The notes beneath the pieces are model-generated. The model saw nothing but the letters and a program-made list of their open reading frames with translations, was not told the DNA's origin and searched no databases. This document shows positions 33,030 through 35,687 of a stretch of 43,880 nt of DNA, piece by piece. The translations under genes were made by a program, and so were the position numbers. This DNA is from Syntrophus gentianae (GTDB taxonomy: Bacteria > Desulfobacterota > Syntrophia > Syntrophales > Syntrophaceae), in assembly GCF_900109885.1 (NCBI RefSeq), contig NZ_FOBS01000026.1, forward strand, positions 1 through 43,880. Reading direction: 5' to 3'. How positions within the stretch are numbered: position 1 is the first letter of the stretch; each line of letters opens with the position of its first letter.

Positions 33030-34223
33030 ATGAAACTTGCGTCGAGAGTATCTTTGATCAAACCGTCGCCCACGCTGGTCATTACCGCAAAAGCTGCTGC
33101 CCTGCGTGCCGAGGGGCGGGATGTCGTCGATTTCGGGGCGGGAGAACCGGATTTCAATACCCCGGATTCCATTAAAAACGCGGCGATCCAGGCGGTGGAA
33201 TCCAATTTTACGCGCTATACAGCCGTCGGGGGCATCGATGAATTGAAAGACGCGATTATCCGGAAACTTCAAAGGGATAATTTCCTGTCTTACAAACGTT
33301 CAGAGATTGTCGTCTCCTGCGGGGCCAAGCATACCCTCTTTAATCTCGCTCAAGTCCTCTTTGAGGAAGGGGATGAGGTCATTATCCCGGGTCCATACTG
33401 GGTTTCCTATCCGGATCTGGTCCTTTACACCGGCGCTCAACCGGTGATTGTGAACACACAGGAAAAAAATGGCTTCAAATTGACGCCGGAAGAATTGGAA
33501 GCCGCCATATCGGAAAAAACCAAGGCGCTGATTATCAACAGTCCATCCAATCCGACGGGATGCGCTTACTCGAAAGAAGAGCTTGCCGCACTGGCGGAGG
33601 TGGTGATTCGTCATTCCTTGATGGTCATTTCTGACGATATCTATGAAAAGATCCTCTTTGACGATATGCCCTTCTGGAACATGGCTGCGGTCAATCCCGC
33701 GCTGAAAGACCGGACGGTTGTCGTCAATGGCGTTTCGAAGGCCTACGCCATGACCGGCTGGAGGATCGGCTATGCCGCCGGTCCGGAACCCGTCATCGCG
33801 GCGATGGGGAAGATCCAGAGTCAGAGCACCTCCAACCCGGCTTCCATATCCCAGAAGGCCGCCGTTGAGGCTCTGAACGGCGACCAGCAGGTCCTTGTGG
33901 AAATGGTCCGTGAATTTCAGAAGCGACGGGATTACATCGTTTCCACGCTGAATGCTTTTGAGGGGGTATCCTGCCTCAAACCCCAGGGGGCTTTCTATGT
34001 CTTTCCCAATGTATCCGCATTGTATGGTTTAAGCTGGAAAGATCGAAAGATCACCGATTCCGCGACGATGACCGAGTATCTCCTCGAGGAAGCGGAGGTA
34101 GCCGTCGTGCCGGGCATCGCCTTTGGAGATGACCGCTACATAAGAATTTCCTACGCCACCTCCATGTCGATTATCGAAAAGGGACTGGAAAGGATAGGTA
34201 AGGCACTGAGACGTTTGAGCTGA
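33030..34223 (+). CDS. Aspartate aminotransferase (class I, PLP-dependent)
   Basis: This 397-residue protein is a fold-type I aminotransferase of the Ib aspartate aminotransferase group. The PLP lysine is Lys237 in GVSKAYAMTGWRIGYAAG. Other signs are FGAGEPDFNTPDSIK at the start, INSPSNPTGCAYS with the PLP-contacting Asn, and the C-terminal RISYATS with the carboxylate-binding Arg. It most likely interconverts oxaloacetate plus glutamate with aspartate plus 2-oxoglutarate, which ties it to asd in the same cluster; some members also act on prephenate. It starts eight bases after coaD. Confidence 0.92.
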   Translation: MKLASRVSLIKPSPTLVITAKAAALRAEGRDVVDFGAGEPDFNTPDSIKNAAIQAVESNFTRYTAVGGIDELKDAIIRKLQRDNFLSYKRSEIVVSCGAKHTLFNLAQVLFEEGDEVIIPGPYWVSYPDLVLYTGAQPVIVNTQEKNGFKLTPEELEAAISEKTKALIINSPSNPTGCAYSKEELAALAEVVIRHSLMVISDDIYEKILFDDMPFWNMAAVNPALKDRTVVVNGVSKAYAMTGWRIGYAAGPEPVIAAMGKIQSQSTSNPASISQKAAVEALNGDQQVLVEMVREFQKRRDYIVSTLNAFEGVSCLKPQGAFYVFPNVSALYGLSWKDRKITDSATMTEYLLEEAEVAVVPGIAFGDDRYIRISYATSMSIIEKGLERIGKALRRLS

Positions 34224-34280: not shown

Positions 34281-35687
34281 ATGGGCGGTTTATTCGGGGT
34301 TGTTTCGAAAGAGAATTGCATGAAATCCCTTTTTTATGGGACGGATTATCACTCCCACCTGGGAACTGAAAATGGGGGTCTGGCCGTATTCGGGGAAAAT
34401 AATTTTCGTAAGGCCATTCACAGCATCAGCCAGGCACAATTCAAATCGAAATTTGTCGATTATTACCGGCAGATGAAAGGAAATGCGGGAATTGGGGCCA
34501 TTGACGACGACTCGCCTCAACCTCTGATTATCCGCTCCAAATTCGGAACGTTTTCGATCGCCGCAACGGGTCTCGTAACCAACCGGGACCGTCTTGCCTC
34601 CGACCTGCTTCAGGAGGGGACCTCCTTCAGTGAAATAAAGGATGGTGCTGTCAATACCGTAGAACTCGTGGCTAAACTGATCAGCAGGGGAACAAGTCTT
34701 GTTGAGGGCATTGTACGGATGCAGGAGGCGATTGAAGGCTCCATCTGCGTTCTGATATTGACCGATGAGGGGCTCTACGCTGCCCGCGATAAGTATGGCC
34801 GGTTCCCCCTGGCACTGGGCAGGGAACGGACAGGGGCAGGCTATGCGGTCGCAACGGAATCCAGCTCCTTTCCCAATCTAAACTATGAACTGGTTAAATT
34901 TCTCGGTCCCGGTGAGATCGTTCAACTCACTGCCGATGGATATCATATTCTACGGCCCGAAAACAAAGAACGGAAGGTCTGCGCCTTTCTGTGGATCTAT
35001 ACCGGCTATCCGTCCTCCTGCTATGAAGGAATTTCGGTGGAGAATACCAGGGAACGCTGTGGGAGAGCCATTGCCAGGCAGGACAACGTAACGGCGGATC
35101 TGGTCTGCGGAATACCGGATTCCGGTGTCGGACATGCCCTGGGTTATGCTGCCGAATCAAGAATTCCCTATCGCCGTCCCCTGGTTAAATATACCCCGGG
35201 GTATGGCCGGAGTTATACCCCTCCCTCCCAGGATATCCGCGATCTTGTTGCCACCATGAAACTCAGCGCCGTTCATGATGTCATCAACAACAACCGGATG
35301 ATTGTCTGCGATGATTCCATCGTGCGGGGAACACAGTTAAAGAATTACACCATCAAGAAGCTTTGGGAAAACGGTGCTCGTGAGATTCATATTCGAGCCG
35401 CCTGCCCTCCGCTCATGTTTACGTGCCTTTATGGGTCCTCAACCCGCTCCTCGTCGGAACTGGCTGCCAGACGTGCCATTTCGGCCATTGAAGGAAAGGA
35501 ACCCACTGACATTACCCCCTATCTGGATTGCCGTTCAGAGGAATATTCAAGAATGGTTGAATGGATTCGTCAGGATCTGAATGTAACGACTTTGAAATAT
35601 TTGAATATTGAAGCCATGATCGAAGCCATCGGTCTTCCGGCGGATCACCTCTGTCTTCACTGCTGGCGGGGTGGCTCACTGCTTTAA
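34281..35687 (+). CDS. PurF-like phosphoribosyltransferase without the glutaminase nucleophile
   Basis: This 468-residue protein aligns along its length with glutamine PRPP amidotransferase (PurF), first enzyme of purine synthesis. The phosphoribosyltransferase half looks intact: PRPP loop VCDDSIVRGT (about 342-351) and PDSGVGHALGYA. Four Cys (234, 382, 458, 461) match the [4Fe-4S] ligands of the Bacillus-type enzyme. The N-terminal Ntn glutaminase half is not normal: it begins MGGLFGV where PurF has CGVFGI after processing, so the catalytic Cys1 is Gly; the HRGQE substrate box reads HLGTE, and the NGNL and SDTE boxes read TGLV and NTVE. The protein therefore should not use glutamine in the normal way. 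It stands alone between an aminotransferase and ispG, with no other purine gene near. A true PurF is presumably elsewhere. Function unknown. Confidence 0.85.
   Translation: MGGLFGVVSKENCMKSLFYGTDYHSHLGTENGGLAVFGENNFRKAIHSISQAQFKSKFVDYYRQMKGNAGIGAIDDDSPQPLIIRSKFGTFSIAATGLVTNRDRLASDLLQEGTSFSEIKDGAVNTVELVAKLISRGTSLVEGIVRMQEAIEGSICVLILTDEGLYAARDKYGRFPLALGRERTGAGYAVATESSSFPNLNYELVKFLGPGEIVQLTADGYHILRPENKERKVCAFLWIYTGYPSSCYEGISVENTRERCGRAIARQDNVTADLVCGIPDSGVGHALGYAAESRIPYRRPLVKYTPGYGRSYTPPSQDIRDLVATMKLSAVHDVINNNRMIVCDDSIVRGTQLKNYTIKKLWENGAREIHIRAACPPLMFTCLYGSSTRSSSELAARRAISAIEGKEPTDITPYLDCRSEEYSRMVEWIRQDLNVTTLKYLNIEAMIEAIGLPADHLCLHCWRGGSLL

Follow-up and report, generated by a model that had tools for sequence, protein, structure and literature searches.

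Amidophosphoribosyltransferase, or PurF (EC 2.4.2.14, TIGR01134), is represented by solved structures from B. subtilis (1ao0, 1gph), E. coli (1ecf) and A. thaliana (6lbp). When Cys1 of E. coli PurF is replaced by Ala or Ser, glutamine activity becomes undetectable and ammonia can still be used, according to the passages of PMC3261824 on which we draw. The same passages (Brown et al. 2011, PMC3261824) describe crenarchaeal PurF', a PurF paralogue without the N-terminal Cys that is kept beside a true PurF, name ammonia dependence as one possible role for it, and report wrong start codons hiding the Cys for some archaea. Glutaminase-less PurF paralogues are already in print in that part of the source, for Crenarchaeota.

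The present work concerns a PurF homologue of Syntrophus gentianae, encoded in a window of 43,880 nucleotides (the whole stretch of DNA that was analysed; Table 1). Like crenarchaeal PurF' as portrayed in these passages (PMC3261824), the protein has no N-terminal Cys and shares its genome with a true PurF. In contrast to PurF', many members of which have Ala or Val, the clade of the window protein has Ser, Gly or Thr, and its neighbours are mostly other than the purine genes found near PurF', a comparison made by description only (PMC3261824). In the open-licence PMC literature we found no description of this bacterial and thermoplasmatal clade, of its Q-loop deletion or of its sister clade. 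The window protein resembles canonical PurF in its two-domain fold, PRPP loop, pyrophosphate loop and the four [4Fe-4S] Cys positions of the B. subtilis enzyme. It differs in the absence of Cys1, the deleted Q-loop, the replaced oxyanion Asn, an altered flexible loop, an insertion ahead of the last two Cys and a score below the family cut-off.

Table 1. Features of the PurF homologue and its upstream neighbour (positions in the window)
Feature	Position	Strand	Basis or remark
Pyridoxal-phosphate aminotransferase gene	33030..34223	+	57 bases upstream of PurF homologue, same strand
PurF homologue without glutaminase site, 468 aa	34281..35687	+	ATG start, no internal stop, profile and structure matches
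Gly codon replacing PurF nucleophile Cys1 (residue 2 of ORF)	34284..34286	+	alignment
DYHSHLGTE, in place of canonical LQHRGQE box	34344..34370	+	alignment
AIDDDSPQP, site of deleted glutamine-binding Q-loop	34497..34523	+	alignment
TGLVTN, in place of oxyanion box HNGNLVN; first Asn replaced by Thr	34566..34583	+	alignment
NTVE, in place of SDTE box	34653..34664	+	alignment
Cys234, predicted [4Fe-4S] ligand position 1	34980..34982	+	alignment to B. subtilis PurF
Pyrophosphate loop IPDSGVGH	35112..35135	+	alignment
PRPP-site flexible loop KYTPGYGRSYTPPSQ	35187..35231	+	lowest model confidence, residues 306-313
PRPP loop VCDDSIVRGT	35304..35333	+	alignment
Cys382, predicted [4Fe-4S] ligand position 2	35424..35426	+	alignment to B. 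subtilis PurF
Cys458-x2-Cys461, predicted [4Fe-4S] ligand positions 3 and 4	35652..35663	+	alignment to B. subtilis PurF

Glutaminase and PRPP sites of the protein

The resemblance to PurF is not due to chance, as the TIGR01134 (purF) profile matches the protein with an E of 7e-63 and PurF entries (1ao0, 1gph, 6lbp) come closest among solved structures, by sequence as well as by fold. The match reaches 213.5 bits and remains under the curated cut-off of 350 bits, and at E 0.001 the only Pfam match is GATase_7, the class II amidotransferase domain. The predicted model (mean pLDDT 88.8) has the two-domain PurF fold and aligns over its whole length with 6lbp (Z 41.5, rmsd 2.1 A, 425 residues aligned), the comparison with 1ao0 giving a Z of 40.8. 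A sequence-only reading of this DNA had pointed to Gly in place of Cys1, and this was borne out, the Gly being residue 2 of the ORF. A mis-called start was rejected as the explanation of the missing Cys, because the upstream in-frame extension comprises only seven codons, TGTGIYT, without Cys (open frame of 475 codons). The second PurF with Cys1 that this reading had suggested looking for was found at C13:59672-60997 (518 bits, with Cys1, HVRYST and HNGN all present), so the window gene is not the only PurF of its genome.

Fifty clade members were aligned together with 4 sister-clade proteins and 14 canonical PurFs. Position 1 of this joint alignment is Cys in 14/14 canonical rows; the 50 clade rows have Ser (31), Gly (15) or Thr (4) there. 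In a larger set of 113 rows with the residue present, from which duplicate genes were removed via a hand list and in which seven archaeal genes are counted twice (L118-L124, again as L127-L133), Ser occurs in 68, Gly in 38, Thr in 7 and Cys in none. The N-terminus is missing from L066 and L084. Gly is found in Syntrophaceae-type loci, in L096-L101 of the window's phylum and in Bacteroides, Parabacteroides and Peptoclostridium proteins. N-terminal Ser and Thr act in other Ntn hydrolases.

The altered boxes HLGTE, TGLV and NTVE are as the earlier reading described them, and its list was incomplete, the deletion of the Q-loop having been missed. The stretch corresponding to B. subtilis mature residues 72-79, Arg72 included, is gapped in all 50 clade rows, that of the window among them, as well as in the four sister-clade rows. 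Oxyanion Asn102 is kept in 14/14 canonical rows, in 0/4 sister rows (Ser instead) and in 6/50 clade rows, the window protein having Thr; these six, among which are the G148, G347 and G125 proteins, lack Cys1 and the Q-loop all the same. Arg26 of HRGQE has become Leu in 42 and Met in 8 of the 50 clade rows, and Asp127, at which the alignment is loose, is kept in 9/14 canonical rows and 1/50 clade rows. In canonical PurF these residues bind glutamine. Glutamine use by the window protein is very unlikely.

The former glutaminase domain also has a conserved residue set. Asp22, Tyr23, His26, Gly28, Lys55, Asn101 and Glu128 are invariant in the 29 rows of alignment A2, and Glu118 and Asn125 are present in at least 90% of these rows; His26, Asn101 and Glu128 are common to canonical PurF too, or nearly so. 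In a set of 115 rows, with L118-L124 entered twice (again as L127-L133), Lys55 is replaced by Arg in 10 and Glu128 by Asp in 2.

On the PRPP side, VCDDSIVRGT and four Cys had been described as kept, and they line up with the corresponding loop and cluster Cys of B. subtilis PurF. The PDSG of the pyrophosphate loop and the four putative cluster Cys (B. subtilis type) are invariant in 50/50 clade rows. Across the same rows the PRPP loop reads [DE]DSIVRGT: its first acidic position is occupied by Asp (21 rows) or Glu (29 rows), Ile gives way to Val or Leu in 3, and the other residues (second Asp, Ser, Val, Arg, Gly, Thr) do not vary. The flexible loop of the clade is clade-specific and differs from that of canonical PurF. 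Judged by its residues, the PRPP side of the window protein looks functional.

Purifying selection on the window gene is strong, with dN/dS of 0.053 and 0.058 against L005 and L006 (88% identical) and of 0.065 and 0.081 for the N-terminal domain in the same comparisons, figures that are rough because dS exceeds 1. Decay of the gene was rejected on these values, and the earlier view of a preserved paralogue stands. Mean pairwise identity in the clade is 0.49 for the N-terminal domain vs 0.61 for the PRPP domain, the values for the 14 canonical rows being 0.42 vs 0.49. Relative to the PRPP domain, the N-terminal domain of the clade is thus somewhat less conserved than the canonical one, and conservation alone therefore singles out no new pocket.

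Clade, sister clade and the genomes that carry them

The tree was built from 69 hand-picked rows and drawn with a midpoint root, crenarchaeal PurF' being outside the row set. One branch each sets apart the clade (100/100), the canonical PurFs (100/100) and a Cys1-bearing sister clade (100/98), and the clade groups with its sister clade with a support of 100/100. With residue 1 considered, as the sequence-only reading had proposed, a single clade emerges (100/100), to which the window ORF belongs and all examined rows of which have Ser, Gly or Thr at position 1. A separate Cys1-to-Ser change is seen in L165 (G097:C38, match 58931-60241), the third PurF homologue of one genome, which starts with MSGIFG, retains HRGQES and EVRYS, and hence an intact Q-loop, and lies on a very long branch on the canonical side of the tree, in no assigned group.

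The sister clade (L089-L092, from the window's phylum) is 34-37% identical to the window protein (blastp). It shares with the clade the same Q-loop deletion, the four cluster Cys and a PRPP-loop Cys ahead of the acidic pair; unlike the clade, it retains Cys1 and QHRGQ, its pyrophosphate-loop Asp is Met in 4/4 and its Lys305 is Tyr. Since clade and sister clade are both without the Q-loop, the Q-loop was probably lost first and Cys1 later, if the canonical PurFs are the outgroup.

The clade had been suspected to be widespread and misnamed by homology, and it indeed spans several phyla with some members annotated as amidophosphoribosyltransferase. It occurs sporadically in Thermodesulfobacteriota, Thermoplasmatota, Bacteroidota, Clostridia, Planctomycetota, Actinomycetota and Patescibacteria. 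A scan of species genomes gave, among the best 80 of 90 relatives, Syntrophus, Smithella, Syntrophorhabdus and other Deltaproteobacteria together with Thermoplasmata, Planctomycetota, Actinomycetota, Myxococcota and Patescibacteria. In even samples, 18/118 genomes of the window's phylum have the clade gene (at least 48% identity) and another 4 the sister type; the clade gene also occurs in 17/116 genomes of the archaeal phylum of G118 and in 2/145 Patescibacteria (the phylum of G125). Further carriers, from records labelled as plasmids, are Bacteroides, Parabacteroides, Phocaeicola and Peptoclostridium; of their clade members, two are annotated as amidophosphoribosyltransferase, one as hypothetical protein and one has no annotation.

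TIGR01134 was searched in 45 clade-carrying genomes (14 of the 18 from the window's phylum, plus 10 and 21). Another, higher-scoring PurF (at least 299 bits) was present in 38/45 carriers, so that need for the clade gene is not shown in these, and none was found in 7/45. Of the 38 other PurFs, seven, all among the 17 from the set of 21 genomes, reach 299-340 bits, which is below the 350-bit cut-off and within the scores of the sister clade; they do not belong to that clade, because all seven, like the four inspected over the cut-off, carry the Q-loop with Arg (11/11). Cys1 was seen in 9 of these 11, the G292 and G330 frames as read starting behind it.

Four of the seven carriers without another PurF have a PurD homologue: G148 (502 bits), G347 (552 bits), G280 (545 bits; clade gene split across contigs) and G282 (255 bits, under the cut-off of 288). 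In the patescibacterium G148, whose clade gene is at locus L111, purM (263 bits), a purN-like ORF, purD and purL (1396 bits) follow one another on the contig of the clade gene, ~17 kb from it, all above their cut-offs except the purN-like ORF (116 bits), and GlmS is the sole other TIGR01134 match of the genome. The PurD search gave no match in G125 and G127 and in G123 only weak ones not exceeding 46 bits, and profile searches of these three genomes found no canonical PurF, PurM or AIRS-domain protein. Among sister-type genomes, G031 (one contig, estimated 85% complete) has PurD and no other PurF was found in it; the other three each carry canonical PurF, whole or as a fragment where a contig ends. 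Where canonical PurF was not found, the assembly is a draft that may lack the gene, and each single absence of PurF or PurD is thus weak. Taken together, the PurD-positive genomes with a sole PurF favour phosphoribosylamine synthesis, and the PurD-negative carriers leave room for another product.

Gene neighbourhood

Neighbours within 700 bases were counted at 111 loci, including the window and 4 sister-type loci; the ORF caller prefers the longer of two overlapping frames, which placed L010, L038, L143 and others outside later counts, and the hand list of duplicates likewise placed G057 outside the neighbour count. The commonest neighbour is the aminotransferase (22/111), restricted to Syntrophaceae-type loci, the window's relatives: a similar gene lies at most 414 bases upstream in 21/110 other loci examined. 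For the window's aminotransferase, the best NCBIfam match is aspartate transaminase, at 506 bits under the model cut-off of 617. A carB gene adjoins 8/111 loci (5 clade, 3 sister; 6 upstream, 2 downstream), a Q-loop-type purF 3/111, all archaeal and none beside the window gene, guaA or a GuaA-like ATPase gene 2/111, glutamate dehydrogenase 1/111 and pepT 3/111. The carB and glutamate dehydrogenase neighbours were confirmed by NCBIfam for L094, L095 and L136, and the vicinity of L095 has an NrpR-type nitrogen regulator and a glutamate-synthase-domain gene. As raw counts, these nitrogen and purine neighbours are no more than suggestive of the ammonia-using role proposed below. In the window genome the canonical purF likewise lies 3' of carB, whose C-terminal half lies in the locus, and the association with carB may have come down from the canonical gene.

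A fixed operon partner was rejected, as clustering and listing of the flanking genes gave lineage-level neighbours only. Neighbours vary from clade to clade and therefore no single pathway can be named. In L102, L103 and L104 (Peptoclostridium, Bacteroides finegoldii and Parabacteroides, respectively) the peptidase T gene is directly 3' of the PurF relative. The other PurF, whose gene comes next after the clade gene in L067 and L071, has the Cys, but its Q-loop Arg is Tyr (HTYYS).

Of the carriers, 8/18 have a GuaA-like ATPase that lacks a glutaminase domain, vs 11/100 other genomes (Fisher p 0.0017), or, with the sister clade counted in, 10/22 vs 9/96 (p 0.0002), in tests that treat genomes as independent and ignore kinship. 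In the window genome it was not found at the limit used. Stand-alone ATPases of this GuaA C-terminal type (L126:2968-3924 and L063:10611-11576) share ~68% identity between an archaeal and a bacterial genome and occur in 19/118 genomes of the window's phylum; they are likewise amidotransferase relatives without glutaminase. The loci L062:596-6149, L063:6001-11576 and L038 have a PurF relative, a radical SAM plus methyltransferase protein, a glucokinase-like gene and a GuaA-like ATPase gene in a row.

Candidate functions

The sequence-only reading had offered three functions: use of free ammonia, another nucleophile, or a regulatory role. The first is best supported, because four draft genomes combine a PurD homologue with this protein as the sole PurF homologue found, and we put it at slightly better than even that the window protein is a glutamine-independent, ammonia-using phosphoribosylamine synthase. 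This is favoured on the grounds that the protein very probably makes no use of glutamine, that its PRPP side looks functional and that E. coli Cys1 mutants can use ammonia. The C-terminal domain would bind PRPP and Mg, and free ammonia would attack C1 of PRPP to give 5-phosphoribosylamine. The remodelled N-terminal domain might now be structural, or might bind ammonium or an effector. The enzyme would serve as an ammonia-driven back-up alongside canonical PurF and would be the only PurF in a few genomes. The clade-specific flexible loop counts against an ammonia synthase. In G123, G125 and G127, where PurD, PurM and AIRS were not found, phosphoribosylamine would have no known use, unless these assemblies are incomplete. 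The sister-type genome G031 is an imperfect stand-in for the clade because of its Met for the pyrophosphate-loop Asp and its Tyr for Lys305.

The main rival, possible and on the whole unlikely, is an enzyme that transfers phosphoribose from PRPP to another amine (amino acid, aminoarene or base), which it would bind in the remodelled pocket or directly in the PRPP domain. The new, nearly invariant residue set of the former glutaminase domain and the clade-specific flexible loop are consistent with it, as are the three carriers without PurM, an AIRS protein or a PurD over the cut-off, and the row of radical SAM, glucokinase-like and GuaA-like genes in L062, L063 and L038. However, a conserved partner pathway is absent, the neighbours varying by clade; the N-terminal domain is not specially conserved (0.49 vs 0.61; canonical 0.42 vs 0.49); and in G148 the protein is the sole PurF of a genome with purM, a purN-like ORF, purD and purL. 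A more specific form, that the former glutaminase pocket, putatively rebuilt around Asp22, Tyr23, Lys55, Glu118 and Asn125, binds a new amine and that the product lies outside purine synthesis, seems doubtful to us; it would account for the clade in small Patescibacteria in which no purine genes were found.

We consider improbable a regulatory role, in which a paralogue of little catalytic power would sense PRPP or nucleotides and control canonical PurF, for instance via mixed oligomers. The other, higher-scoring PurF in 38/45 carriers and the adjacency of both genes in 3 archaeal loci would suit such a role, but a canonical PurF to control was not found in seven carriers and the PRPP-site loops are nearly invariant; a pure regulator fits the four PurD-positive sole-PurF genomes poorly. 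As for another nucleophile, it fails for the window protein, which has Gly, and Ser is available in 68/113 rows of the clade. Retained hydrolysis of glutamine or another amide, via Ser, Thr or a water molecule, is hardly credible: Ser (68) or Thr (7) at position 1 of the 113 rows (seven genes counted twice) and the oxyanion Asn of 6/50 rows, including G148 and G347, speak for it, against which stand Gly in 38 rows, window included, the Q-loop missing in 50/50 and the undetectable glutamine activity of E. coli PurF with Cys1 changed to Ser, as given in the passages cited (PMC3261824).

If the protein is an ammonia-using phosphoribosylamine synthase, purine synthesis would have a second, glutamine-independent entry, which may be the sole entry for certain small genomes of bacteria or archaea and may serve others as a back-up. 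Metabolic models would then misdescribe many proteins that bear the name amidophosphoribosyltransferase. Moreover, the sister clade, which lacks the Q-loop and bears Cys1, gives a likely and testable order of events in the loss of the glutaminase site.
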